Source: Phycisphaerae bacterium (GTDB taxonomy: Bacteria; Planctomycetota; Phycisphaerae; UBA1845; UTPLA1). Taken from it: a DNA stretch of 64,000 nucleotides. The first letter of the stretch is position 1; every line of letters starts with the position of its first letter. The notes beneath the pieces are model-generated. The model did not search any database and was not told the origin of the DNA. It worked only from the letters and a program-made list of their open reading frames with translations. A program made the position numbers and the translations under genes. The stretch is from the NCBI GenBank assembly GCA_035275405.1, contig DATEMU010000007.1, positions 124,001 through 188,000 of the forward strand. Direction: 5' to 3'. Positions 26,637 through 52,221 of the stretch are shown here, piece by piece.

Positions 26637-27866
26637 TTATTGGGTGGGGCAATCCGGCTTCACAACCGATTCGGCCAAGATGGGAACGGGGGTATCGGGC
26701 TTGATGAGGCCGTAGGCGATGGCGACGCGATGGAATTCGCGGAGACGGCGCTCTTCGGGGGTGATTCGGAATTGGTCGTCGGCGGTGGAGGTGATGGCGT
26801 CGGATTTTTTTTCCGCAGATGACGCAGATGAGCACAGATTTGAGGGGGCGGAAGAAGTCGGAAGTGGGAATTCGGAATGCGGAAGTGAAGGAGACAGAGC
26901 GGGGGGATTTGAGATTTCGGGATTTGAGGTTTGAGAGGCAGAATCGCCCCGGGGTGAAGGGACAGAAGTGACCGAAGGGACGGAAGGGACAGGGGCAACG
27001 TCAGCAGCCGAGGGCGGGGGTTCGTCGGCCGCCGGGACGGGGGCCGCTACGGGGTTGTGCGTGCGGAGGATCTCTTCGAGTTCGTCGGGGGTTTTGCAGT
27101 CGGCGACGGGGTAGCCCATGGCGGTGAGGTCCTTCTTGACTTGTTCGAAGTAAGCGAGCGCTCGGGCTTCGTCGCTGGCGAGGGCGGCTTTTTCCTCGGC
27201 GAGCGCCGCCTGTTCTGCGGCGAGGGCCTCTTTTTCCGCGGCCAGGGCGATTTGTCCCGCGGCGAGTTCCTCGTCGACACGGGCCAGGAGGTCGTCGGCT
27301 TTTTCCGCAGATGACGCAGATGAACACAGATTTGAAGGGGTGGGGGATTGGACAGGATCGGGCGAATGCGGAATGCGGAATTCGGAATGCGGAATGGCAG
27401 AAGACGGCGAATTGCGGATTTGAGTTGCGCGGTGCCTGCGTGTGACGGCGGCGTTTTCGAGGGCGGCGCGGTGGGCGAGGATGAGCTTGTAGATGGTATC
27501 GGCGCCGGACGAATCGCCGGCCATGATCTGCTCGACGAGGTGCTGGCTGATTAGGGCGGGGAGGAGATCGGCCAGGGCGCTGGCGTGGTCGTTGGGGAGG
27601 GCATCCTCGGCGAGCTGGAGGGCGGCGGCGCGGGCGCGAAGGCGACTGGCGTAACGATAGAAGGCGGTGAAGCTGAGACCGACGTCGGCGAGGTTGTATT
27701 TTTTGTAAAGCGGGCGGTAACCGGCGGGTTCGTAGGTGAGGATGGCGCGGTCGAGCTTGCGGCGGAGTTCGGGGGCCACCTTTTCGTAGATGGAGTGGCG
27801 CGAGGTGGTCTCGTCGGGGAGGGCGTCGGCGGCGAGGTCGGCGGTGGCGGGGTCAAGAGCGTTCAT
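26637..27866 (-). CDS. Repeat-linker paralogue A, possible DNA-binding protein
   Basis: A 409-residue protein with a close paralogue at 50559-51767. Three conserved blocks are joined by variable linkers: an N-terminal helical domain (about 20-140) with LRRKLDRAIL, YKKYNLADVGLSFTAFYRYASRLRAR; a coiled coil (about 188-265) full of AAEKEALAAEQAALAEEKAAL ending YFEQVKKDLTAMGYPVAD; and a C-terminal block (about 365-409) ITPEERRLREFHRVAIAYGLIKPD. The N-terminal domain has the feel of a helix-turn-helix such as those in Mu-type small terminase proteins, but this is only a resemblance. The linkers are Pro/Ser-rich and coded by sequence that also occurs as dispersed repeats. AAGGAG precedes ATG 27866. 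Confidence 0.65.
   Translation of the reverse strand: MNALDPATADLAADALPDETTSRHSIYEKVAPELRRKLDRAILTYEPAGYRPLYKKYNLADVGLSFTAFYRYASRLRARAAALQLAEDALPNDHASALADLLPALISQHLVEQIMAGDSSGADTIYKLILAHRAALENAAVTRRHRATQIRNSPSSAIPHSEFRIPHSPDPVQSPTPSNLCSSASSAEKADDLLARVDEELAAGQIALAAEKEALAAEQAALAEEKAALASDEARALAYFEQVKKDLTAMGYPVADCKTPDELEEILRTHNPVAAPVPAADEPPPSAADVAPVPSVPSVTSVPSPRGDSASQTSNPEISNPPALSPSLPHSEFPLPTSSAPSNLCSSASSAEKKSDAITSTADDQFRITPEERRLREFHRVAIAYGLIKPDTPVPILAESVVKPDCPTQ
26810..26842. repeat. Dispersed repeat TTTTTTCCGCAGATGACGCAGATG (copy 1)
   Basis: A 33-base word inside paralogue A, translated on the minus strand as NLCSSASSAEKK. The same word recurs at 27300 and, inverted, at 51116. Confidence 0.85.
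27300..27334. repeat. Dispersed repeat TTTTTCCGCAGATGACGCAGATG (copy 2)
   Basis: Second copy inside paralogue A, read as NLCSSASSAEK just ahead of the coiled-coil block. It is the same sequence as at 26810 apart from one base and the length of the T-run. Confidence 0.85.
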
Positions 27867-28477: not shown

Positions 28478-28506
28478 TTGACTCGCCATAGTTTCGCTGT
28501 AGTATA
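28478..28506 (+). promoter_or_regulatory. Sigma-70-type promoter of the GHKL operon, leaderless
   Basis: TTGACT at 28478-28483 and AGTATA at 28501-28506 are separated by 17 bases. Transcription would start at about 28513, right at the ATG at 28514. There is no Shine-Dalgarno sequence, which fits a leaderless mRNA. Confidence 0.55.
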
Positions 28507-28513
28507 TGTATCC

Positions 28514-29152
28514 ATGGATATAGCGAAACGGGCGATTGAGGCGGTGCAGAAAACCGAGCGGCAGTTACTCGAACTTGCTGGAACTGCGCTAGCGGCAGGC
28601 GATTACAAGAGCATTCGTGTGGCTGAGCTCGCTAAGGCGGTGGGTGAATTAGTCCACTTCCCTGGCCTAAACGGAGAAGCCGAGGAGGCCACTGGGGTGC
28701 CACTACCGATCGCGCACAAGCCCGGCGATGAGAGCGCAGGCGAGAGCAGCCCGCGACCACGCCGCTCCCCTCGCAAAGGCGAGTATCCCAAGTTCTTCAG
28801 ACAACGAGAGGCTCTAGTGAAAATCGCTTGGTCGAAAAGCGAGAGGGCTGAATATGAACACAGAGCACCGCGGTTGGTAATTGATCTCCTCGTTGGTGCT
28901 ATTCAAAAAAAAGCCGGCAAGGGCCGACTTTTTACCGCAGATGAAGTTTTGCCCTTTGTTAATTCAATAGACGGTACTGAAGTGCCTCGCTATCAAACGT
29001 ATCTCTGTCTAGCGTGGTTGCGGGCTGAAGGACTAGTGAAACAGAAGGGTAGGCAAGGCTACTTCGTCCGGGAGCCGGATGGCTTGTTGAGAAAAGTTAC
29101 TACCTGTTGGGAACGGTTATCGCCTCGACCGACGGTTGACGACGGGATTTAG
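28514..29152 (+). CDS. First gene of GHKL operon: putative winged-helix protein
   Basis: A 212-residue protein not assigned to a named family. It has an N-terminal helical segment (RAIEAVQKTERQLLELAGTAL), a charged Pro/Arg linker near residues 72-92 (SSPRPRRSPRKGEYPKFF), then a domain with LVKIAWSKSERAEYEHRAPR and a probable winged helix at the C-terminus (TYLCLAWLRAEGLVKQKGRQGYFV). ATG 28514 is preferred over the frame start at 28478, which falls in the -35 box. Its stop lies 25 bp before the ATPase gene. A DNA-binding or regulatory role is inferred from the winged-helix pattern only. Base composition is lower in G+C than in neighbouring core genes. Confidence 0.6.
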   Translation: MDIAKRAIEAVQKTERQLLELAGTALAAGDYKSIRVAELAKAVGELVHFPGLNGEAEEATGVPLPIAHKPGDESAGESSPRPRRSPRKGEYPKFFRQREALVKIAWSKSERAEYEHRAPRLVIDLLVGAIQKKAGKGRLFTADEVLPFVNSIDGTEVPRYQTYLCLAWLRAEGLVKQKGRQGYFVREPDGLLRKVTTCWERLSPRPTVDDGI

Positions 29153-29177
29153 TCGAGTTTTCTGTTTGGAGTATCGC

Positions 29178-31523
29178 ATGAGTATTCAACGTGACGAACG
29201 TGGTATTCACTTTCACGAACTGGGTACGCTGCATTCGGTTACACGCTGGATTAGCACGCATCCTGACGGCCTTGCTGAGTGGCTTAAAAATGTAAGGCGC
29301 GCCTATCAGGCTGATCGCGCGAACGTCGCAGAGGAACACCGCGTTGCGGTGATCCTCATGAGGGATTCATCCGCCACTGGCCCTGCCGCCCTGGGCATGC
29401 TCGATGTTGGTGGCGCTACGCTTGAGGACGTAAGCGCATGGAGCACTTGGCAGGATTTTACCGCATCAAGCCGCGGCTCGGGTGTGATCGAAGAGCAAAC
29501 TCAGGGTAACGGCGCAAAGGCATACATGTACCGTCTGTTCGGCGGCCGGGCTCGAATTCTCGGAATCCGCGACACCAAGCTCAACTGTAAAGGCTTTGAG
29601 GGTGCCGCGCAATCCCTTGAACGAGGAATTCCTGGGTTTATCCCGGATGTCGCAGCCGGGCGCGAATTGCCCGTGGATTCGTGGCAAAATCAACTCCGGT
29701 CCGCTCTTGAGACGTACCAACTTCGACATGATGAATTACCGCCAGCTGTTTTGGATGCCATCCACAAGCGCCGAGCATTCACTTTGGTGGAGGGGCTTGA
29801 GCCGAAGGACCTGTACAAGGGCCGTATTCCCGAGGACCTAGTTCAGAAATTACTTCGTCACGATCAAGCAACAGCCGCCATTGAACAACTACGAATCTAC
29901 GCCGTGCATAACGGACGCATCCTTAACGATGGGAATCCGCTTAGGCTTGAGACCATCGAGACGTACCCAGGATTCGAGACGGCTCGCGTACATGAAATTC
30001 CCGAAACTCTCAAGGACGACGAGGGAGTTCTGCAATCCACGACTTTTGATGGAAAAAAGCCGAAGGGTCGCCTCATTCTGTACACTTCGCGAGAAAACAT
30101 GCTGAGTGCCTATAAGAAGCTGAAACCAAGATGGAAGATCACGTACAAAGCGAACCCGAACCACATCATCGGGTCAAAGCCCGTCTCAGACCTAGCGCCC
30201 GCTGTTCCTGGTTCGTACTTCATTTATGGCACCGTTGAGCTTGCAGCACTTGAGCCCGATTATGTATCGCTTGGTCGGCTCAGGCCGAATGATGGTCCGC
30301 TTGTCTCGGCTCTCGACCGCTTCATCACGGACCATATCAAAGATTTGGCCAAGGAGATCAACGAACGTCGGCGTCAAGAGCTTGACGATCAGACCTTGGA
30401 CGAGGTTCAGCGCGAAAACCGCGTCCTTGACAGATTCAAGAACCAATTTCTCGAATCGTCTGGACCGAGCGGTCCTGGCGACGATGGCAACGGCGAGGGC
30501 GGTAAGAAGAAGCGCAAGCGAAAGCGGGTCCCACACGAGTACGGCGATACGCCTGAATCGATAGAGTTTGACTGGGACACAAGCCTGCCGGTTCGGATTG
30601 GCTGCGGCGTTGTTGCCAGAATGGTAAGTATCCTCAAGCCAAGAGTCGTCGACGCCGCCGGGAGACTAGTGCCCCGTGCCGAGCTTGAATGGATTACAAA
30701 CGACCGCCATGTCGTGCAATTCCGCACCGATGACCAAGTAGTAGCGACAGGAAAAGGAAAAACCCAGGTTAGCTGTCGAGTACGAGGAACAACCGTGAGT
30801 TCTTCCCGGGTTGACGTGGAAGTTTGGACGATTGATCACGTATTGCTCACGCCTCGAGCCCTAACCATTCCGCTTGGCAAGCGCGGTCAAATCACCGCAC
30901 AGGTGACGAACGACGACGGTATACGCGCGACTAACGTATTACTCAACTGGACTCATGACGCTGCCGATCCGCTGATCGTTCTAATCTCTCCGTGGGGATG
31001 GGTTAACGGTAATCGCCTCGGTCGAACATCGATAAGCGCAGGCGCTGGAGAAGAGATTTCCGGTGGTGTTTGGGCACGAATTCGCGCTGAAGTTGAGGTG
31101 ACGCCGAATCCGGAGGCCCCAGAGCGCGGAGGGGGATTTCCGAAGCTGTTAGTTACCGACCGCGATATTGACCCATTCACTGGTGAGATTCGGGCTTCAG
31201 ACGACGGTCAGCCGACCCTTTATCAAGAAGTGTGGGACTACCAGAGCAACGTTTGGTGGCTAAATCTAGGTAGCCCGGAGGCAGCGTTCTTCTTCAAACA
31301 AAGAGCAGACAACCCCCGCCAGTGGCGTGCGTTCCACTCACAAAAAGTCATCGAAATGGTCGTCCAAGTGCATATGATGGACGAATACGACACCACGGGA
31401 GACGAGAGGCCCGATCTGTGGAGTCGCCACAAAAATCAGTTTGAAATCTTCCAGGTCCAGTTCATGCAGGCAATGTGGGAAAAACTCCAACCGTATATTT
31501 TTAGTGGAATCGGGCTGGAGTAG
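29178..31523 (+). CDS. GHKL-type (Hsp90/MORC-like) ATPase with Ig-like C-terminal part
   Basis: A 781-residue protein. Near the N-terminus are motifs of the GHKL ATP-binding fold: an N box with Glu34 and Asn38 (AEWLKNVRRAY, pattern ExxxNxxxA), a G1 box MLDVGGATLEDV (Asp76, Gly78), and a lid/G2 segment TQGNGAKAYMYRLFGG near residues 108-123. G1 is not canonical, since the second Gly of DxGxG is Ala. A middle region with a KKKRKRKR patch near residue 450 is followed by a beta-rich Ig-like region (LTPRALTIPLGKRGQITAQVTNDDG). It has no kinase H box. The layout resembles MORC/Hsp90-like ATPases found in defence loci; a role in immunity is inferred from context. Confidence 0.65.
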   Translation: MSIQRDERGIHFHELGTLHSVTRWISTHPDGLAEWLKNVRRAYQADRANVAEEHRVAVILMRDSSATGPAALGMLDVGGATLEDVSAWSTWQDFTASSRGSGVIEEQTQGNGAKAYMYRLFGGRARILGIRDTKLNCKGFEGAAQSLERGIPGFIPDVAAGRELPVDSWQNQLRSALETYQLRHDELPPAVLDAIHKRRAFTLVEGLEPKDLYKGRIPEDLVQKLLRHDQATAAIEQLRIYAVHNGRILNDGNPLRLETIETYPGFETARVHEIPETLKDDEGVLQSTTFDGKKPKGRLILYTSRENMLSAYKKLKPRWKITYKANPNHIIGSKPVSDLAPAVPGSYFIYGTVELAALEPDYVSLGRLRPNDGPLVSALDRFITDHIKDLAKEINERRRQELDDQTLDEVQRENRVLDRFKNQFLESSGPSGPGDDGNGEGGKKKRKRKRVPHEYGDTPESIEFDWDTSLPVRIGCGVVARMVSILKPRVVDAAGRLVPRAELEWITNDRHVVQFRTDDQVVATGKGKTQVSCRVRGTTVSSSRVDVEVWTIDHVLLTPRALTIPLGKRGQITAQVTNDDGIRATNVLLNWTHDAADPLIVLISPWGWVNGNRLGRTSISAGAGEEISGGVWARIRAEVEVTPNPEAPERGGGFPKLLVTDRDIDPFTGEIRASDDGQPTLYQEVWDYQSNVWWLNLGSPEAAFFFKQRADNPRQWRAFHSQKVIEMVVQVHMMDEYDTTGDERPDLWSRHKNQFEIFQVQFMQAMWEKLQPYIFSGIGLE

Positions 31524-31552
31524 CGCGAAGCTATAGCCGAGGAGGTCATGAC

Positions 31553-32239
31553 GTGGAACAGATGGAAGTCGGTGGACTAGGTCTTCGCCATCAGGCACTG
31601 CTGGCAGCTGTTCGCTTATCAGGCGGCGAATTAACGAAGACGTTTACCGCCGAAGACTTGCTCGTTGAAGCATGGAACCATAACAAAGTTGCCTGGGGTC
31701 TTCGCGGATTTGAGGAGGATTACCCCGACTCCGAGAAAATCAACAAGGAACTGAATCGTCGGGGCTCGATCGGTTTGCTCGGACAAGGACTGATTGAGCG
31801 CGTTGGCCCGATGATGTATCGACTTAGCGTGGCGGGTCTGCACGAGGCGGCTCAGTTGCAGCCCGCTGATACAATTGCACGCGAAAAGGCGGACCGGGAG
31901 CTTGAAGTATCGGTCAAGGAAATACTCGAACATTCAGTGTTCAGGACATGGCTTGCCGATCCTTCAAAACCGAAATACTTCCGCGAGGCGGGTCATTTTT
32001 GGGGAATTGCACCGGGAACACCAGCAAAAACTGTTCGAGTTCGCATTAGTCGGGTCGATCGCGTGCTTAAGGCGGCGAAGGACATCCTCGACGAGAAAGG
32101 AGTCGACTCGATCACAGAGCAACGCGGCAAACTTCTCTTCGATCGAGAAGATGTCAACCGCTGTGAACAATTTCAACAGGTACTCAAGACCCGGTTCATG
32201 CGCGAGCTGCAAATGCTCGATCCTGAATTCGCCCATTAG
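31553..32239 (+). CDS. Third gene of GHKL operon: putative winged-helix protein
   Basis: A 228-residue soluble protein, no named family recognised. The N-terminal 110 residues look like a winged helix (LRHQALLAAVRLSGGELTKTFTAEDLLVEAW ... GLIERVGPMMYRLSVAGLHEAAQL). A C-terminal helical region contains KEILEHSVFRTWLADPSKPKYFREAGHFWGI. The start is GTG 31553, because GGAGG lies seven bases upstream; an ATG at 31548 is out of frame and too close to that box. It follows the ATPase gene by 29 bp and is surely in the same operon. It probably works with the ATPase. Confidence 0.6.
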   Translation: MEQMEVGGLGLRHQALLAAVRLSGGELTKTFTAEDLLVEAWNHNKVAWGLRGFEEDYPDSEKINKELNRRGSIGLLGQGLIERVGPMMYRLSVAGLHEAAQLQPADTIAREKADRELEVSVKEILEHSVFRTWLADPSKPKYFREAGHFWGIAPGTPAKTVRVRISRVDRVLKAAKDILDEKGVDSITEQRGKLLFDREDVNRCEQFQQVLKTRFMRELQMLDPEFAH

Positions 32240-32367: not shown

Positions 32368-32994
32368 TCACCAATCGACGGGCTTGCGGATCGTCCCACC
32401 ATGTCCGTCGGGCATTTCTCGCGGGAACTGGCTTCGCTGAATGAGTTCCATCGGAAGAGATCGATTCTTGTCGGCCGCGCTGCGCAGTTCCACGGCGGCC
32501 CCTCGCCTGGGGTCGCGGGATGGAACATAGACAATCACTTGTTTTTCAGGGAATCGAAGCTTGAGCAGGTTGACGGATGGGACAAGGTCGGAGTCGCCGC
32601 TGATGATGACGAATCGCTCTGCCTTGTCCTGATAAGCATCATCCAGCAACATCACAGCGATGCTGACGTCGGTTCGCTTCTCTTCTGTGCCGACGTAGAA
32701 ACGTGAACCGGCGAACGTGCAGGCGGAAACGCGGCACTTGAATCGTTTTGTTTTGAAGTTGCCGAGAATGGTTTCTATCTTGGGGCTGGTGGCCAAGGCT
32801 CGCAGGTAGGCGTCCTGATTCGCGCGGGTCGGACCATCGACGCGTGCCGTAAAGTACCGAATGAGCTGGATTTCGTCGTCCTGGCGCAGCCGCTCGCACA
32901 TTCGCTGGATGTCCAGCCATTTGTGGGGGCTACCCTTCACGGCGCCGTAATAGAGATTGAATCCATCGATGTAGATGATGCTGCGCCGAGACAC
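32368..32994 (-). CDS. NYN/LabA-type PIN-like nuclease
   Basis: A 208-residue protein of the NYN fold, PIN-like metal-dependent ribonucleases. The first strand motif IIYIDGFNLYYGAV carries the first Asp; the central VSIAVMLLDDAYQDKAERFVIISGDSDLVPSVNLLK has the acidic cluster of the active site. The protein starts at GTG 32994 right before this strand, as expected for the family; an earlier GTG at 33057 would translate through a hairpin. It is convergent with the GHKL operon, with about 130 bp between. LabA-like proteins act in RNA turnover, and NYN domains also occur in toxins and defence genes; which applies here is open. Confidence 0.8.
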   Translation of the reverse strand: MSRRSIIYIDGFNLYYGAVKGSPHKWLDIQRMCERLRQDDEIQLIRYFTARVDGPTRANQDAYLRALATSPKIETILGNFKTKRFKCRVSACTFAGSRFYVGTEEKRTDVSIAVMLLDDAYQDKAERFVIISGDSDLVPSVNLLKLRFPEKQVIVYVPSRDPRRGAAVELRSAADKNRSLPMELIQRSQFPREMPDGHGGTIRKPVDW

Positions 32995-33019
32995 GCGGAG
33001 AGGATACCGCCTGGGGCGC

Positions 33020-33047
33020 AAAAAAACAGGCAGCCATATAGGCTGCC
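33020..33047 (-). terminator. Hairpin plus T7 tract in the NYN gene leader
   Basis: On the minus strand a seven-pair stem (GGCAGCC / GGCTGCC, loop TATAT) is followed by TG and seven Ts. A second small stem, CCGGC/GCCGG, lies just upstream. With the promoter at 33082-33109, the element sits inside the leader, about 26 bases before the NYN start, so it may act as an attenuator. Confidence 0.7.
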
Positions 33048-33081
33048 CAACCGGCACAAGGCCGGGGAGTCGTGCTAACAG

Positions 33082-45442: not shown

Positions 45443-46747
45443 ATGCGGAAGCACTACATCCTCGACACCAACATCCTCCTGCACGACCCCAACTCGATCT
45501 TCCAGTTCGCGGACAACGTCGTCGTCATCCCCATCGAGGTGATCATCGAGATTGACCGGTTCAAGCACGAGATTTCCAGCCGGGGGCAAAACGCGCGGGA
45601 GGTGTCGCGGCTGCTCGACCAGGTGCGGCAGTCGCAGAGCCTGGCGCAGGGGGCGAAGCTGCCCGGCGGGGGGATGCTGCGGGTGTATTGCGGTCAGGAG
45701 CACGCGCTGGCGGCGAAAAATGTCTACGCCGACGCGGAGATCCTGCGGATCGCGCGGGAGATACAGGCGGCCGAGCCGGGCGGCAAGGTCATCATCGTCA
45801 CGAAGGACATCAACCTGCGGATTCGGGCGGATGCGCTGGGATTGCCGGCGGAAGATTACACGACGGATCGCGTCGGTCTGTCGGACCTTTACACGGGGCG
45901 AATCGAACTCGCGGAGACGCCCGAGGTAATCAACCGGTTTATGGCCGAGGGGATGATGCCGCTTCCGGCGGGGACGAGCATTTATCCGAACGAGTATGTG
46001 CTGTTGCGGAGTAACAACGGGACGGCGGCGTCGGCGCTGGCCCGCGTCGATGCGAAGTGCGAACGGCTGGTGCGGGTCAACGAGTCGAAGAAGCCGGTCT
46101 GCGGGATTCGCCCCAAGAACAAGGAGCAGTATTTCGCCTTCGACGCCCTGTTCTGCGAAGCCATCAAGCTCGTGACGATCATGGGCAAGGCGGGGACCGG
46201 CAAGACGCTTCTCGCCATGGCGGCGGGGCTGCAGCAGGTCCTGCACGACAAGCTCTATCGCGGGCTCGTGGTCACGCGGCCGACCACGCCCGTCGGCAAG
46301 TCGATGGGGGCGCTGCCGGGCGGGATCGAGGAGAAGCTGGCGCCGTGGCTCAAGCCGATCAGCGACACGCTGGAGACGCTGCTCGACGCGGGCGGAGCCA
46401 TCGGCGGGCGGAAGCATGTGCGCGACCTGTGGGAAAGCGGCACGGTCGATGTCCAGCCGCTCTCGTACATCCGCGGTCGGAGCATCCCCAAGCAGTTCCT
46501 CATTGTCGACGAGGCCCAGAACCTAACCCCCCTGGAAGTCAAGACGATCATCACCCGCGTCGGTCACGGGACCAAGGTCGTGCTGACCGGCGATTCGTAC
46601 CAGATCGACAACCCGTATGTCGATTCAAGCAGCAACGGGTTCAACTACCTCGTGAACCGCTTCCGCGGCGAGCCGCTGGCGGCGCATATCGAGTTGACCA
46701 AGGGCGAGCGCAGCCCGCTGGCGGAGTTGGGGGCGAATTTGCTGTAG
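45443..46747 (+). CDS. PIN-PhoH fusion protein (YlaK/PhoH2 type)
   Basis: A 434-residue protein with an N-terminal PIN nuclease domain (HYILDTNILLHDPNSIF, catalytic Asp8; VVVIPIEVIIEIDRFK) over about residues 1-135 and a C-terminal PhoH-type helicase/ATPase domain. The latter has Walker A MGKAGTGKTLLAMAAGL, ALVVTRP-like RGLVVTRPTTPVG, Walker B FLIVDEAQNLTPLEVKTIITRVG and TGDSYQIDNPYVD. PhoH2 proteins are RNA helicase-nucleases. Length and domain order match. The start probably lies at the transcription start. Confidence 0.9.
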   Translation: MRKHYILDTNILLHDPNSIFQFADNVVVIPIEVIIEIDRFKHEISSRGQNAREVSRLLDQVRQSQSLAQGAKLPGGGMLRVYCGQEHALAAKNVYADAEILRIAREIQAAEPGGKVIIVTKDINLRIRADALGLPAEDYTTDRVGLSDLYTGRIELAETPEVINRFMAEGMMPLPAGTSIYPNEYVLLRSNNGTAASALARVDAKCERLVRVNESKKPVCGIRPKNKEQYFAFDALFCEAIKLVTIMGKAGTGKTLLAMAAGLQQVLHDKLYRGLVVTRPTTPVGKSMGALPGGIEEKLAPWLKPISDTLETLLDAGGAIGGRKHVRDLWESGTVDVQPLSYIRGRSIPKQFLIVDEAQNLTPLEVKTIITRVGHGTKVVLTGDSYQIDNPYVDSSSNGFNYLVNRFRGEPLAAHIELTKGERSPLAELGANLL

Positions 46748-46748
46748 C

Positions 46749-46840
46749 AGATCAGAGCCCCACCAGCCCGACGCGCAAGCACCGGGAATCTTGCGTTCGC
46801 TCAGAGCCCCGAGGCGCGAGCCCGGGAGCGTATCGGGTAT
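46749..46840. repeat. Dispersed repeat CAGAGCCCC... (two half copies)
   Basis: CAGAGCCCC at 46752 and CAGAGCCCCGAGGCGCGAGCCCGGGAGCG at 46802-46830 flank CGCGCAAGCACCGGGAATC. The second half is the inverse of the element at 33268. It follows the PhoH gene, so it may mark the transcript end. Confidence 0.65.
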
Positions 46841-46900
46841 TGGCGGGGGCCAGTTTCGGGGGCGGCGATTGGGGTCCGACACGGCGAAACTTCGCTGGGT

Positions 46901-46906
46901 TATACT
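46901..46906 (+). promoter_or_regulatory. Candidate -10 box of the PLD-RNase III-like/cyclase operon
   Basis: TATACT 32 bases upstream of the start at 46939, after the PhoH-side repeat. No matching -35 box is visible, so the call is weak. Confidence 0.3.
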
Positions 46907-46938
46907 TCTCTTTTTTTGCGTTACGCTAACCAGAAGGC

Positions 46939-49278
46939 ATGTTGGAAGCGGAGCTTTCGGACCCGATCGTCATGGAACTAATTCATCAAAACGAATCCCA
47001 AGAAAACGCATGGCTTTTCCATCGGACTCCCTGGGAGCCGGAGTTTTTGTCCAGGTTTCCTCGGGTAACACAGACACTTCGAATCGCATGCCCGTTCATT
47101 AAAATCCGAAGCATCCGACTAATCCTCGCAAGCTTGCCATCTCGCCCACAAGCACCTATCCACGTAAAGTTGCTTACACGCCTTAATGCGCCTGATTGTC
47201 GCGCCAGGGTCCACGATATTGCTGCGATCGAGTTGCTCCGGAGCAATCCTCTTGACGACCGCTGCCGTATCGACGTGCGCATTAACAACGCTTTGCACGC
47301 GAAGTGCTTTATCTTCGACACCAACGAAGTCATCATCACATCGTCTAATCTAACGTTCGCCGCCTTTTACAAGAACCTTGAAGTTGCGATTGCCCTTTCT
47401 AATCCTGAAGTAATTACCACATCGACGCAGTATTTCGACGAGATATTTGATGCGGCGTCGCCTGTGTCGGACGCGATGCTGGAATCGGTGAAGAGTCGTT
47501 TGCCTTTCCTGCCACCTGCGGAAGTCTGCATTAGCCCCGAGCCCGCGGTCATCGAGGCCCCTCCAATTGCTCCGGTTGATGATGCGTCTGCTGACTTCCC
47601 CGAGCTCGATCCTTCGGCCGTCCAAAAGCTCGATGAAGCTTTGTCGCAACAACTCGAGCGCGACCTAGACAAGAGCTGCATATTTCTTTCATCACCGGAC
47701 GGACAATCGGCCGCAGCCGAGAGCGAAAACTCGTTCTTTCAAGACATGGCCTCTCGTTTTTCGCGGGTCTTTAGTGGTGTTCAGCCCACAAACGACGAAC
47801 TGGCTGTAATATTCGTACATGCGTCCGCCCGGCAATCACTCAAATCAGTAAACGTTGATCTAGAGCGCGCGGCGCACTTGGAGTGTATCGGTCGCCACGC
47901 CCTTACGATTATCATAATAGAGTCGCTGTTGCAAGCCAGCAGCAGGTCAATTGATGCGGGAACCCTCACGTCGAAGATGAACTATATTGCTGCCTCCGAT
48001 CATTGTGTGCGCAAATTCCACGAGGCAGGCCTTGCCCAAGTCTTACTTGACGTCTCTATGACATCAAGTTCCGAGGCATTCAGTCGCGGCCGTGCGTTGA
48101 TTCTCAAGAAGACCATATATCGAATGGTTGGCTATCTCGCTCTATCACGGCCTTGGGAGGAAATTGCGAATGTAATTATTGCAACGTTGGAGATTGCGGA
48201 GTCCTTTCCTTTTGAGTCCTATCGAGACCACAATTATAAGAGGGAATTACAGAACGCTACTCAACAAGCGGGCGCCGGTAGACCAATATACAAACTTTCC
48301 GGTCGCGAGGGTCGCGACGATGATCCAAGTTTCATCGTCGATGTGATCGTCCGCAACAAGATTGTGGGCCAAGGGCGAGGCACGCCAATGAAGATCGCCG
48401 AAATGCGGGCAGCATTCGACGCACTAAAGGCGTTTCGGCTCGATCGCTCATCCTCGCGTGCGACTGGAGGAGAACCCGTTAAAAGCGCGACCCTTGCAGC
48501 GTGCTCGCGACTTGGACTCAGTGCCCTCCGCACAGTCACATCACGTGATATTGGGATTGCCCAAGCGCTCTATGTACTACTCCCGACGGGGAGCCCTCGA
48601 ACAGAGTTTGCTGACAAACGGGAAGGACTGTCCGTCTTAGGAGGCGTCGTGCGAGAACTACTGGCCTACTTCCAATGCTACTCAGACGGATGTGGCCCGA
48701 CAGCAGCGACTAGTCGCGCCAATTATCTAAACAAGAAAGAGCGCGTCGTAAAGTGTATCCGCCAGTCTCCGTTATTGGGATGGATTAAAGAACTGGTCAA
48801 AGACAATCAATTTCGTACTGCTGGCGATCCGAGCGTTGTAAACGAAACTGTCAATGTTTGCTTCGCCGTTCTTTTTGCTGCTGGCGGAATAGAAACTTGT
48901 CGTGGTCTTGCTTCGTATCTATTTCGGGATACATCCGTTGATGTATCACAGGAGATTATTCCTGCAAAGGTGAGATTGCTGCAAGCGCTTCAAGCCGCGT
49001 TCCGAGAACGAGTAAAAGAACTCTTGAAGTTTGAATTAAAACCCTTGCATAAGCTTAACCAAAGCCACGATCCGTTATTCCAAGTGCGAGTCGTCTTCGA
49101 CGGAAAAGAATTAGGGCGAGGTACTGGAAAATCGCGTCGGATCGCTGAAGAAGTTGCCGCGGAGTGCGCGCTAATTAATCCATTATTGCAACAACTGTTA
49201 AGCTCAGCAGTTGCCTCTTCCTCGGATTCATCGTCAGCGGCGGGAGGCGCAGAAGTCGTTGCGCACGGCGGTATTTGA
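46939..49278 (+). CDS. PLD nuclease fused to two degenerate RNase III-dsRBD units
   Basis: A 779-residue multidomain protein. Residues about 20-190 are a PLD-type domain with one HKD-like motif: His120, Lys122 and Asp127 in HAKCFIFD, then SSNLTFAAFYKNLEVA (Ser135-Asn137). Residues about 280-425 follow the RNase III fold: HLECIGRHAL for ERLEFLGDxVL, GTLTSKMNYIAASDHCV for the LTxxRxxLVSN helix, then ALILKKTIYRMVGYLAL. Of the catalytic acids only Glu315 survives. Residues 431-500 are a dsRBD (YKRELQNATQQAG...GQGRGTPMKIAEMRAA). A second RNase III-like unit (520-665; GLSVLGGVVREL, NVCFAVLFAAGGIE) is also degenerate and followed by a second dsRBD (688-750; GRGTGKSRRIAEEVAAECAL). Domain order recalls Dicer. 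Inferred role: dsRNA sensing coupled to a PLD nuclease. Confidence 0.72.
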   Translation: MLEAELSDPIVMELIHQNESQENAWLFHRTPWEPEFLSRFPRVTQTLRIACPFIKIRSIRLILASLPSRPQAPIHVKLLTRLNAPDCRARVHDIAAIELLRSNPLDDRCRIDVRINNALHAKCFIFDTNEVIITSSNLTFAAFYKNLEVAIALSNPEVITTSTQYFDEIFDAASPVSDAMLESVKSRLPFLPPAEVCISPEPAVIEAPPIAPVDDASADFPELDPSAVQKLDEALSQQLERDLDKSCIFLSSPDGQSAAAESENSFFQDMASRFSRVFSGVQPTNDELAVIFVHASARQSLKSVNVDLERAAHLECIGRHALTIIIIESLLQASSRSIDAGTLTSKMNYIAASDHCVRKFHEAGLAQVLLDVSMTSSSEAFSRGRALILKKTIYRMVGYLALSRPWEEIANVIIATLEIAESFPFESYRDHNYKRELQNATQQAGAGRPIYKLSGREGRDDDPSFIVDVIVRNKIVGQGRGTPMKIAEMRAAFDALKAFRLDRSSSRATGGEPVKSATLAACSRLGLSALRTVTSRDIGIAQALYVLLPTGSPRTEFADKREGLSVLGGVVRELLAYFQCYSDGCGPTAATSRANYLNKKERVVKCIRQSPLLGWIKELVKDNQFRTAGDPSVVNETVNVCFAVLFAAGGIETCRGLASYLFRDTSVDVSQEIIPAKVRLLQALQAAFRERVKELLKFELKPLHKLNQSHDPLFQVRVVFDGKELGRGTGKSRRIAEEVAAECALINPLLQQLLSSAVASSSDSSSAAGGAEVVAHGGI

Positions 49279-49279
49279 A

Positions 49280-50059
49280 ATGGCTAACCGAATGAACATT
49301 GGAGTTATTGCTGTCTTGGACGCTCTGGGGTTCAAAGGAATATGGCGAAGGCAGGATTTAAGCACGCTTATTAATCATCTAAGAGAATCCGTGAAGTTCG
49401 GGCGCGCAATCGCAAAGGCATCACAATACCAATTTACGGTCGACCCCGTAATGAGTAGGATCGGAGTTACAAGTACAGTCAGAATGTTTAGCGATACGGT
49501 GTTGATCGCTGTGCATTTCGATCCGAGCGAGCTCCGCGAGAAGCTTGTAGGGCTAGGAAAAGACGAAGCGTGGCTAAAAAACAGGGTTGTCTTGACTGTG
49601 CTATTCGATGTATGCATGTTTTTGTCTATTGCAATTGCCAAGAAACCCGTCTTGGTTTATCGCGGCTGTGTTTGTGCAGGTGAAATGCTGATCGATAGTG
49701 ACATATTTCTCGGTCCTGCCGTCGATGAGGCAGCAGAAAAATCGCCGCTTGCTGATGGTGGGTTCGTATGGCTTGCGAGATCGGCTCAGTCCTGGATTTC
49801 CGACGACATGATTCCTACGCGGCCTGTTATCACGCTCGACGAGTTAGCGATCCCATACGCAGTCAGCCTAAAGGGAGGATCAACTTATCAAACTCGCGTC
49901 GTCAACCCGCTACTTATGACAGACGAAAAGCAACGCAAACAAATTATTGTTGATACGCTTCGGTCATTCGATACGGACTCGGTTCTTGTGGAGGTCAAAC
50001 AACAGAACACGGAGGCAATGCTCGAACGTGCGAGAGCTGTCCTAAGCAAGAGCGGATGA
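49280..50059 (+). CDS. Class III nucleotidyl-cyclase-like protein (Pycsar-type pattern)
   Basis: A 259-residue protein with a cyclase homology domain: VIAVLDALGFKG gives the first metal-binding Asp14; MFSDTVLIAV gives the second, Asp72; VYRGCVCAGEMLIDSDIFLGPAVDEAAEKSPLADGG is the region of the conserved Gly and Phe-Gly-Pro of class III cyclases. Both metal Asp residues are kept, so activity is plausible. Short single-domain cyclases of this kind make cCMP or cUMP in Pycsar anti-phage loci; the product here is unknown. The ATG follows the upstream TGA by one base and lacks a Shine-Dalgarno, so it is translationally coupled to the PLD-RNase III-like gene. Confidence 0.7.
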   Translation: MANRMNIGVIAVLDALGFKGIWRRQDLSTLINHLRESVKFGRAIAKASQYQFTVDPVMSRIGVTSTVRMFSDTVLIAVHFDPSELREKLVGLGKDEAWLKNRVVLTVLFDVCMFLSIAIAKKPVLVYRGCVCAGEMLIDSDIFLGPAVDEAAEKSPLADGGFVWLARSAQSWISDDMIPTRPVITLDELAIPYAVSLKGGSTYQTRVVNPLLMTDEKQRKQIIVDTLRSFDTDSVLVEVKQQNTEAMLERARAVLSKSG

Positions 50060-50558
50060 GATATGGGCATATCGGGCCCACGTTCCATGAGTGGCAGTTG
50101 GTGAAGCCCCCGGTGATTCATCCGCCCCGGCCGATCTTCGACTGGCGAAATCTGATCTCACGATTCACCCCCCAGCCCTAACTCCTTGTCCCGCCTCTAG
50201 TTTCAAGCCTCCCGTTTCTCGGCCCAAGATTAGAGGGAGCGCTGAGCAAGGGTCCTGTGCAGTGGACAACAAAAGCGGCGGCGAACCCGCCGCCTCCCTT
50301 GGCTTACGGCTTAAGGCTAATGGCTGATGGCCCGTGAGATCGGAGTCTCTGCGCCATGAACGCTAAACAACCGGTGAATCTTGTGAATCCTGTAAATCAT
50401 GTCCATTTCCTCCCCCCGTTTCCGCGTTGTTCCACCACACAAAAACGATCTCGGTGTCCTCTGTGCCTCTCTGGTGATCGGCTGCTCGTTCAGCCTCATT
50501 CAGCCTCGTTCAGCCTCATTCACCCCCCCGGGGGGCCTGCCTGAAAGGAGTTTGACCA
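50060..50558. repeat. Repeat-rich spacer before paralogue B
   Basis: About 500 bp without a gene. It holds CCTAACTCCTTGTCCC words, AGGGAGCGCTGAGCAAG at 50232-50248 (inverse of the word at 28175-28191), the CGATCTCGGTGTCCTCTGTGCC element (50445-50475) with GTTGTTCCACCACACAAAA next to it, and CATTCAGCCTCGTTCAGCC repeats (50495-50520). Read in reverse, order and content match the 27867-28240 spacer ahead of paralogue A. Confidence 0.7.
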
Positions 50559-51767
50559 ATGAATGACCCAAACCAACTGCCCGAACTGCCCATCGAACTC
50601 GGCCCGCGCTCGTCCGTCTTCGAAAAAACCACCCCCGAACTCCGTCGCAAGCTCGACCGCGCCATCCTCAACTACGATCCGCCCGGATACCGCGCCCTCT
50701 ACAAAAAGTACGGGCTCCCCGAACTCGGCGTCAGCTTCACCGCCTTCTACTACTACGCCCGCCGACTCCGCCGCCGCGCCGCCGCCACCGACATGGCCCT
50801 CACCGCCCTGCCCGACGAACGCGACTCCGTCCGCCTCCTCCCTGGCCTCGTCGGTCAGTGCCTCATCGACCAGCTCATGACCGGCGACGACGCCTCCCCG
50901 CAGGCCGTCTACCGCCTCATGCTCGCCTACACCGCCGCCATCAACAACGCCATCACCGTCCACGAAGCCCGCCACGTCTTCCCCCGCAATGCTCCCTCCC
51001 CTTGCGAAGGGGAGGGCCGGGGTGGGGTTTCCTCTTCCGTCACTTCCGTCCCTTTGGTCCCTTTGGTCCCTTTGGTCCCTTCTGTCCCTTCCCCATCTCC
51101 CACTCCGCCTTCTCCAAATCTGTGTTCATCTGCGTCATCTGCGGAAAAAACCTCCGACCTCCTCGCCCGTGTCGACCGCGAGCTGGCCGAAAGCGAGGCC
51201 GCCCTTGCCGCGGAAAAAGAGGCCCTCGCGGCCGAACAAGCAGCGCTCGCCGAGGAAAAAGCCGCCCTCGCCAGCGACGAGGCCCGGGCGCTCGCTTACT
51301 TCGAACAAGTCAAGAAGGACCTCGCCGCCATGGGCTACCCCGTCGCCGAGTGCCGGACCCTCGACGAACTCGAAGAGATCCTCCGCAACACCAACCCTTC
51401 TGTGGAGCAGCCGCCCTCGGCTGCTGACGTTGCCCCTGTCCCTTCCGTCCCTTCGGTCACTTCTGTCCCTTCACCCCGGGGCGATTCTGCCTCTCAAATC
51501 TCAAATCCCGCCGCTCCTTCTCCTTCCATTCCGAATTCCGCGTTCCCACTTCCGCATTCTCCGTCAATTCCGCATTCCGAAATCCGCATTCCGCATTCTG
51601 CAGACGCCATCACCTCCACCGCCGACGACCAATTCCGTATCACCCCCGAAGAGCGCCGGCTCCGCGAATTCCACCGCGTCGCCATCGCCTACGGCCTGAT
51701 CAAGCCCGACGCGCCCATTCCTAATTGCGCGGATTCGATGGTGAAGACAGATGGCCCAGCCAAATAA
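50559..51767 (+). CDS. Repeat-linker paralogue B
   Basis: A 402-residue paralogue of the protein at 26637-27866. The N-terminal block (KTTPELRRKLDRAILNYDPPGYRALYKKYGLPELGVSFTAFYYYARRLRRR), the coiled coil (DLLARVDRELA ... YFEQVKKDLAAMGYPVAE, near identical between the two) and the C-terminal block (ITPEERRLREFHRVAIAYGLIKPD, almost unchanged) align well, while the linkers differ in length. AAAGGAG precedes the ATG. The linkers are coded by CCTTTGGTCCCTTTGGTCCC words (51055-51095), the NLCSSASSAEK repeat and CATTCCGCATTC words. The conservation of three blocks argues for function; what it is remains unknown. Confidence 0.65.
   Translation: MNDPNQLPELPIELGPRSSVFEKTTPELRRKLDRAILNYDPPGYRALYKKYGLPELGVSFTAFYYYARRLRRRAAATDMALTALPDERDSVRLLPGLVGQCLIDQLMTGDDASPQAVYRLMLAYTAAINNAITVHEARHVFPRNAPSPCEGEGRGGVSSSVTSVPLVPLVPLVPSVPSPSPTPPSPNLCSSASSAEKTSDLLARVDRELAESEAALAAEKEALAAEQAALAEEKAALASDEARALAYFEQVKKDLAAMGYPVAECRTLDELEEILRNTNPSVEQPPSAADVAPVPSVPSVTSVPSPRGDSASQISNPAAPSPSIPNSAFPLPHSPSIPHSEIRIPHSADAITSTADDQFRITPEERRLREFHRVAIAYGLIKPDAPIPNCADSMVKTDGPAK
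51116..51150. repeat. Dispersed repeat CATCTGCGTCATCTGCGGAAAAA (copy 3)
   Basis: Inverse of the words at 26810 and 27300, again read in frame as NLCSSASSAEK at the same place, before the coiled coil of paralogue B. Confidence 0.85.
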
Positions 51768-51807
51768 CGGCTCAGCGATCCGTCGGCGAACAGATACAAT
51801 AAGAGGA

Positions 51808-52221
51808 ATGAGCGATCCGCGTACACGAACGGTGGCGAACCCCGTGCAGGGCGTCCTGGGCATCCTCCGCGACGGCGAGCGCGTCCTGATGATCCAGCGG
51901 TCGAAGACCGTGCGCGTGCCGCTGGCGTGGTGTTTTCCGGGCGGGGCGATTGAAGTGGGGGAATCCCAGATCGAGGCGCTGGTGCGCGAGATGCAGGAGG
52001 AATTGGAACTCGTCGTTCAACCCGGTGAACTGCTTATGACGCAGACCAAGCACGAGGGGCGGCTCGTGCTTTATTGCTGGTCGGCCGAAATCGTGGGCGG
52101 CGCGCTTGCCGCCAACCCGAAGGAGGTTGCCGAGGCGCGGTGGATGACGCCGGCCGAGGTGCGGGTCATGGAGGGCGTTCTGCCGGGTACGTGCGAAATC
52201 CTGGAGACGATCGGGCTGTGA
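51808..52221 (+). CDS. Nudix hydrolase
   Basis: A 137-residue MutT-type hydrolase for nucleoside diphosphate derivatives. The Nudix box is GAIEVGESQIEALVREMQEELEL, at about residues 49-71. It keeps all metal-binding glutamates (REMQEE) but has Glu in place of the usual Gly near the end. ATG 51808 is chosen: AAGAGGA lies just upstream, and a TACAAT box ends seven bases before it. The substrate is not predictable. It follows paralogue B by 40 bp. Confidence 0.88.
   Translation: MSDPRTRTVANPVQGVLGILRDGERVLMIQRSKTVRVPLAWCFPGGAIEVGESQIEALVREMQEELELVVQPGELLMTQTKHEGRLVLYCWSAEIVGGALAANPKEVAEARWMTPAEVRVMEGVLPGTCEILETIGL

Follow-up and report, generated by a model that had tools for sequence, protein, structure and literature searches.

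A candidate phospholipase D nuclease fused to RNase III-like, double-stranded RNA-binding units, and its predicted cyclase-fold neighbor, in a Phycisphaerae genome

Results

A 64-kb stretch of the genome of a Phycisphaerae bacterium (assembly GCA_035275405.1, contig DATEMU010000007.1, positions 124,001 to 188,000; here called the window) contains two adjacent genes which an original prediction, made from the sequence alone, had proposed to form a double-stranded RNA (dsRNA)-sensing immune system coupled to a cyclase. The first gene (gene 1) is predicted to join a phospholipase D (PLD) nuclease domain to two RNase III-like domains, each followed by a dsRNA-binding domain (dsRBD); the second (gene 2) is predicted to encode a small protein of the class III nucleotide cyclase fold. 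All coordinates, frames and residue numbers of the original prediction held in a check of the open reading frames (ORFs), as did the close spacing of the pair: gene 1 ends in a TGA stop, one base follows and the ATG of gene 2 stands at 49280. An alternative start for gene 2 is the second ATG, at 49292, near which many of its relatives begin. The features of the two genes are as follows, with positions given in the window and on the + strand unless said otherwise.

46939 to 49278, +: gene 1, 779 amino acids (aa), PLD domain and two units of an RNase III-like domain plus a dsRBD
47071 to 47445, +: PLD-like domain with a single HKD motif, residues 45 to 169 (Pfam PLDc_2)
47296 to 47349, +: HKD motif, H120-x-K122-x4-D127...S135 S136 N137, compared in four sequences
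47773 to 48228, +: RNase III-like domain 1, residues 279 to 430, catalytic acids mostly gone (R319, R395)
48229 to 48441, +: dsRBD 1, residues 431 to 501
48526 to 48963, +: RNase III-like domain 2, residues about 530 to 675, catalytic acids mostly gone (G569, N639), weaker than domain 1
48964 to 49179, +: dsRBD 2, residues 676 to 747 (Pfam dsrm; hhalign, 97.2%; predicted local distance difference test [pLDDT] of the model, 56 to 84)
49280 to 50059, +: gene 2, 259 aa, predicted class III cyclase-homology fold
49319 to 49321, +: metal-position Asp14 of gene 2, within predicted strand 6-16, invariant in 27 of 27 sequences
49493 to 49495, +: metal-position Asp72 of gene 2, likewise the same in all 27 sequences, in the turn that joins predicted strands 64-70 and 73-80
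49712 to 49735, +: GPAVDEAA, gene 2 residues 145 to 152, at the place of the GxxVNxAxR motif, with Asp149 for the Asn and no Arg

No Rfam match at the gathering score was found in 27000 to 55000, a tRNA search found none, and a promoter scan of 46600 to 50700 returned no candidates.

Gene 1 is matched by Pfam PLDc_2 at residues 45 to 169, above the cut-off (E value, 3.7e-12). The HKD-type motif His120/Lys122/Asp127 was found as proposed, together with S135, S136 and N137, and H120, K122, D127, S135 and N137 make up the HxKx4D pattern with later S/N that characterizes PLD (HKD) nucleases. Five of these residues (H120, K122, S135, S136 and N137) are identical in all four sequences compared, i.e., gene 1 and three relatives. 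By PADLOC, NCBIfam and the structural model, the domain resembles the defense PLD nucleases DrmC, DpdK and SauUSI; the NCBIfam match to DrmC scores 38.7 bits, below its cut-off of 133 bits. These comparisons support the PLD motif as the only nuclease motif of gene 1 that appears intact.

The two RNase III-like units, each with its dsRBD, were recovered by Pfam, NCBIfam, a profile of our own, BLASTP and hhalign. Pfam dsrm matches gene 1 in two stretches (E value, 3.9e-19), the Pfam RNase III-like and DSRM_2 matches are sub-threshold, and NCBIfam RNaseIII matches two stretches (E value, 2.1e-25) at 89.6 bits, below its curated cut-off of 166.25. Our profile, built from 9 of 14 proteins matched by BLASTP (L026, L027, L028, L036 and L038 were left out for want of a recognizable signature motif), matches unit 1 at 68.9 bits and unit 2 at 25.7 bits, each searched separately. 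One RNase III aligns by BLASTP with residues 528 to 734 (E value, 1.2e-4); in phmmer searches of the PDB, residues 279 to 499 align with a Thermotoga RNase III (E value, 4.1e-6) and residues 566 to 745 with another RNase III (E value, 0.0025). The RNase III-like parts taken without their dsRBDs gave hhalign values of 61% for unit 1 and 35% for unit 2, against 0.1% for the PLD domain and 0.3% for the linker as controls on the same target, and the two units including their dsRBDs detect each other at 88.1%. Structure prediction bore out the dsRBDs, the first of which was also matched from the model, but not the RNase III folds, for which the model of gene 1 is too poor to give structural backing.

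Most of the catalytic acids of RNase III are missing from both units, as had been proposed from the replacement of Asp by Arg319 and Gly569; the equivalent positions were taken from the RNase III profile/BLASTP and hhalign alignments. In unit 1, the signature Asp is R319 (R, K, S and T across the four sequences) and the second-motif Glu is R395 (R in all four); in unit 2, the corresponding residues are G569 and N639, both invariant in the four sequences. Because the catalytic acids are mostly gone in both, the RNase III-like units are very unlikely to cut RNA. The positions compared in the dsRBDs, which we take to be typical RNA-contact positions, are mostly kept, basic residues precede the last helix and the loop His of dsRBD 2 is present in three of four sequences. 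It is likely, therefore, given the lost catalytic acids, that the dead units are dsRNA binders rather than cutters, as originally suggested.

Full-length gene 1 is rare. A protein search, in which the 7,995 candidates with the most words in common were scored, yielded three full-length relatives, 44, 38 and 37% identical. In sets of genomes from the phylum, class and order, full-length gene 1 was found in 1 of 392, 1 of 327 and 1 of 114 genomes, respectively, in each case its own genome only; in the order set, the matches in 72 other genomes are confined to the PLD part or the RNase III/dsRBD part. None was found among 339 genomes from the phylum of a Myxococcales relative or in a further set of 23, searches that had no positive control. 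These sets overlap; the order set and the set of 23 are complete and the others are samples of larger groups, with two or three candidates scored per genome in the sets of 392, 327 and 339. Among 18 genomes with relatives of gene 2, 13 match gene 1 partially and none at full length. Searches of viral contigs and of phage records gave no relatives of gene 1, and plasmid matches fall in the PLD part in all of the best 20 of 57 records.

The host genome also has its own RNase III of ordinary size (L002), 24% identical to gene 1 residues 308 to 501. In this protein and in L029 to L034, i.e., in seven of the nine aligned RNase III proteins, an Ala takes the place of the Asp that lies three positions ahead of the second-motif Glu and is D114 in Escherichia coli RNase III; L035 and L037 keep the Asp. 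The seven proteins with Ala may be unusual RNase III enzymes.

The predicted structure of gene 2 has the cyclase-homology fold of class III nucleotide cyclases, and its Foldseek/VIA matches, among those listed, are adenylyl and guanylyl cyclases; PycC was not seen among the matches listed, which is uninformative. Both metal-binding Asp residues (Asp14 and Asp72), reported as kept in the original prediction, are invariant in the 27-row alignment in which conservation was counted. In class III nucleotide cyclases a transition-state Asn and Arg are canonical. At GPAVDEAA, the site of the canonical GxxVNxAxR motif, the Asn position is Asp149 in 27 of 27 sequences, and none of the 27 has Arg at residue 153, the Arg position. 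The assignment of gene 2 as a class III cyclase is upheld for the predicted fold and the metal residues but not for the Asn/Arg pair, and its standing as a working cyclase is in doubt. Gene 2 has no meaningful match in Pfam, NCBIfam, PHROG or PADLOC, and a profile search of the PDB with its alignment gave no matches. Among its relatives, the nearest shares 43% identity and those after it 28 to 38%, a depth similar to that of the gene 1 relatives, which is suggestive only. Two relatives were found in viral contigs and none in plasmids or phages.

The gene pair was surveyed from the gene 2 side in 20 other loci with gene-2 relatives (L003 to L016 and L039 to L044; 4 to 17 kb each). In 7 of the 20, a first gene on the same strand either overlaps the gene-2 relative or ends no more than 20 nt before it; 12 have no such tightly spaced first gene, and overlapping ORFs prevented a judgment on L039. 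In L009, L012 and L014, the first gene codes for an M1E1E6-like protein (the Pfam cut-off is passed in L012 only), and the first gene of L011, which is from the same species as L009, is counted with them by position and length only. The product in L043 is a PIN protein, that in L010 has 443 aa and no known family, and that in L015 has two hydrophobic segments according to a crude count. A protein that resembles the M1E1E6-like integron-cassette family and, directly after it, a gene-2 relative recur as a unit in Desulfoscipio, Sorangium and an archaeon. The upstream gene of L006 appeared PIN-like by eye, but Pfam gave no match and it was rejected.

These varied first genes are reminiscent of Pycsar, in which a small class III cyclase stands beside an effector gene. 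Gene 2 could similarly sense infection and make a cyclic or other nucleotide that activates the nuclease of gene 1, with the RNase III/dsRBD part as a scaffold or ligand sensor. The predicted fold, the two metal Asp residues and the seven tightly spaced loci are consistent with such a role. However, the altered Asn and Arg positions argue against it, as do the Pfam matches of gene 1 (dsrm, PLDc_2, RNase III-like and DSRM_2, with no TIR domain and none that binds cyclic nucleotides) and the 12 loci without a tight first gene. The parallel is also weak because close gene spacing is common in bacteria and because two of the loci, L009 and L011, are from one species. We consider a role of this kind unlikely.

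Both genes differ in composition from their surroundings, in line with the lower G+C content originally noted. The G+C content at third codon positions (GC3) is 0.518 for gene 1 and 0.504 for gene 2, compared with 0.892 for PhoH, 0.855 for the upstream beta-CASP gene and 0.727 for a downstream 402-aa gene. In all three same-family relatives compared, PhoH (79 to 84% identical) is directly followed by a NUDIX gene; two remoter PhoH matches (59%) were left out, and in 11 of 17 family genomes no match passed the threshold. Because PhoH directly adjoins the NUDIX gene in the relatives, about 46748 to 51750 appears to be extra in this genome, a stretch that holds gene 1, gene 2 and the 402-aa gene. 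Horizontal acquisition of the pair is supported by the low GC3 and by its absence from the same site in the three relatives. Features of the insert outside the pair are as follows.

46748 to 51750 (approximate), no strand: stretch missing from three relatives, between PhoH (45443 to 46747) and the NUDIX gene (51751 to 52221)
50060 to 50558, no strand: intergenic stretch of genome-wide repeats, at least 37 places, self included
50559 to 51767, +: 402-aa recurrent gene, part of the inserted stretch

The pair had been described as lying between repeat regions; this is clear downstream, where the repeats occur in at least 37 places in the genome, self included (best 40 of 93 candidates scored), but weak upstream (3 places, self included). 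The N-terminal part of the 402-aa gene has 11 matches in its own genome, self included, and a sister copy matches Pfam Phage_Mu_Gp27 below the cut-off (7.6e-4). Several of the places matching the downstream repeats lie close to copies of this recurrent gene, which were found at 26637 to 27866 and 50559 to 51767 and in loci L066, L068, L069 and L071 to L074; no such ORF was found in L067 or L070. The G+C content 500 to 2,000 bases upstream is 0.49 to 0.57 for seven of the nine copies (only 688 bases were available in L074), the exceptions to this AT-rich 5' DNA being L066 (0.66) and L072 (0.65), and just downstream it is 0.61 to 0.67. The recurrent gene may be a marker of places where accessory cargo has inserted.

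A second low-GC island, at 28478 to 32239, adjoins a sister copy of the recurrent gene and contains three genes (224, 795 and 228 aa; GC3, 0.52 to 0.57) that have no Pfam match at an E value of 0.1 and, in PADLOC, only a weak match to GajB (0.0073). Next to this island is a NYN-domain gene (32368 to 33057, - strand) of the PADLOC candidate defense family HEC-09 (5.6e-46), about 14 kb from the gene pair. The NUDIX gene bordering the insert matches PADLOC family PDC-S07 (1.4e-21) and, adjoining PhoH in the relatives too, looks resident.

The two genes may also be chance neighbors, i.e., insertion cargo acting apart, with gene 1 serving as an RNA-processing nuclease. The absence of gene 1 from the other gene-2 loci, the 12 loci without a tight first gene and a genome with AT-rich cargo next to copies of the recurrent gene would fit this explanation; the one-base spacing, shared strand and matched GC3 of the pair speak against it, and we regard it as improbable. 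The same spacing, the mobility of the locus and the nuclease motif are what might be expected of a toxin with its restraint, in which the PLD nuclease would stop growth through structured host RNA (rRNA, tRNA or mRNA duplexes) and gene 2 would be a nucleotide-binding brake, serving stress responses or maintenance of the island rather than dsRNA sensing. However, no toxin-antitoxin family is among the Pfam, NCBIfam, PADLOC and PHROG matches listed (for PADLOC and gene 1, the best 25 of 28), a long RNase III/dsRBD module is, to our knowledge, unusual for a toxin, and a pure brake would not need the invariant metal Asp residues. This last explanation is the least likely of those considered.

Discussion

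Our results suggest, tentatively and with a likelihood that falls a little short of even, that gene 1 is a PLD nuclease carrying a Dicer-like, noncutting dsRNA-binding module and that gene 2 is its nucleotide-binding partner. The two RNase III-like domains would pair inside one chain, like those of Dicer, and grip an RNA duplex through both dsRBDs. PLD superfamily enzymes with one HKD motif need a dimer to cut; hence, RNA binding could unite two PLD domains, or else free them, leading to cleavage of RNA or of DNA nearby. Through its pair of conserved aspartates, gene 2 would be likely to bind a nucleotide, and it would either restrain the nuclease or make a signal that tunes it.

Several observations weigh against this reading. 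Gene 1 was found beside gene-2 relatives in none of the 20 other loci, so that the expectation that the two would be neighbors in other genomes failed from the gene 2 side and a conserved pairing is not demonstrated. Co-acquisition does not prove joint function because the insert also holds the recurrent gene. For gene 2, the uniform replacement of the Asn and loss of the Arg count against a cyclase, and no PADLOC family matched at an E value of 10 or less, in a library that might miss even a known PycC. For gene 1, the second RNase III-like part is poorly detected by itself in hhalign, the two RNase III-like parts do not detect each other (0.8%) and the AlphaFold2 model has a mean pLDDT of 46.1, with about 30 in the RNase III-like parts. 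Acidic signature positions persist at E315, in the window sequence only (Q, N and N in the relatives), and at E562, in all four sequences. The loop His of dsRBD 1, present in three of four sequences, is Asp461 in the window sequence, and at D127, in the HKD motif, two of the four have Asn.

Gene 1 resembles known proteins in parts. As in bacterial RNase III, an RNase III-like domain precedes a dsRBD and, as in Dicer and Drosha, two such domains appear to lie in one chain. However, gene 1 falls outside the RNase III and Dicer enzymes because the catalytic residues are mostly absent from both units; unlike Dicer and Drosha, it has a dsRBD after each unit and a PLD nuclease in front, and Pfam found no PAZ or helicase family at an E value of 10 or less. 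The RNase III fold with a dsRBD occurs without cutting in the mitochondrial ribosomal protein mL44 and other noncutting RNase III folds. mL44 is in the top Foldseek matches of the (poor) gene 1 model; its sequence match (3.5e-4), limited to residues 416 to 498, is essentially to the dsRBD. Furthermore, mL44 has one unit, a ribosomal role and no nuclease partner domain.

Among defense systems, DrmC of DISARM, DpdK and SauUSI share the type of PLD domain, but a scan of 10 window genes, seven of which surround the gene pair, lists neither DrmA nor DrmB among its matches, which places the pair outside DISARM, and gene 1 scores under the DrmC cut-off. Gene 2 recalls Pycsar in that a small protein with class III cyclase homology and two metal Asp residues stands beside a putative effector gene; it differs in its altered catalytic motif and in a partner that, by domain profiles, is a PLD-RNase III-dsRBD protein rather than a transmembrane or TIR protein. 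By sequence, the pair would not be a member of Pycsar with a PycTIR effector. Base-recognition residues of PycC reportedly vary even between clades (PMC11224242). CBASS offers another comparison, with a cyclase, CdnE03, that has the CD-NTase fold. This staphylococcal cyclase is reported to sense structured phage RNA (PMC10686824), and gene 1 would likewise react to structured or double-stranded RNA; there, however, the cyclase itself binds RNA, whereas in gene 1 it is the nuclease that carries the RNA-binding module. The gene pair would act somewhat like a sensor-nuclease fusion.

The pair perhaps has a role in virus defense, as judged from the DrmC/SauUSI-like PLD domain, the mobility of the locus and the HEC-09 gene in the same window. 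The dsRNA-sensing immunity governed by a cyclase that was originally proposed is plausible. In its full form it would be a new kind of bacterial immune system, with a dead Dicer-like sensor in one chain with a PLD nuclease, under the control of a cyclase-fold protein whose reworked active site makes or senses a nucleotide. That form is rather unlikely, though less so than any of the three alternatives above.

In animals and plants, long dsRNA serves as a major signal of viral infection, and we know of few dsRNA sensors in bacteria. Our literature searches, a weak test as they covered few preprints and subscription papers, gave, among the titles and abstract openings listed, no description of a PLD protein with RNase III/dsRBD units or of the gene pair. 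If our preferred reading is true, the tandem RNase III/dsRBD arrangement would have arisen or persisted in bacteria as a sensor, and a PLD nuclease with a dead Dicer-like module would be a directly testable link from dsRNA recognition to a nuclease. The gene-2 family, a predicted cyclase-fold family with an invariant yet unusual active site, is of interest in itself.

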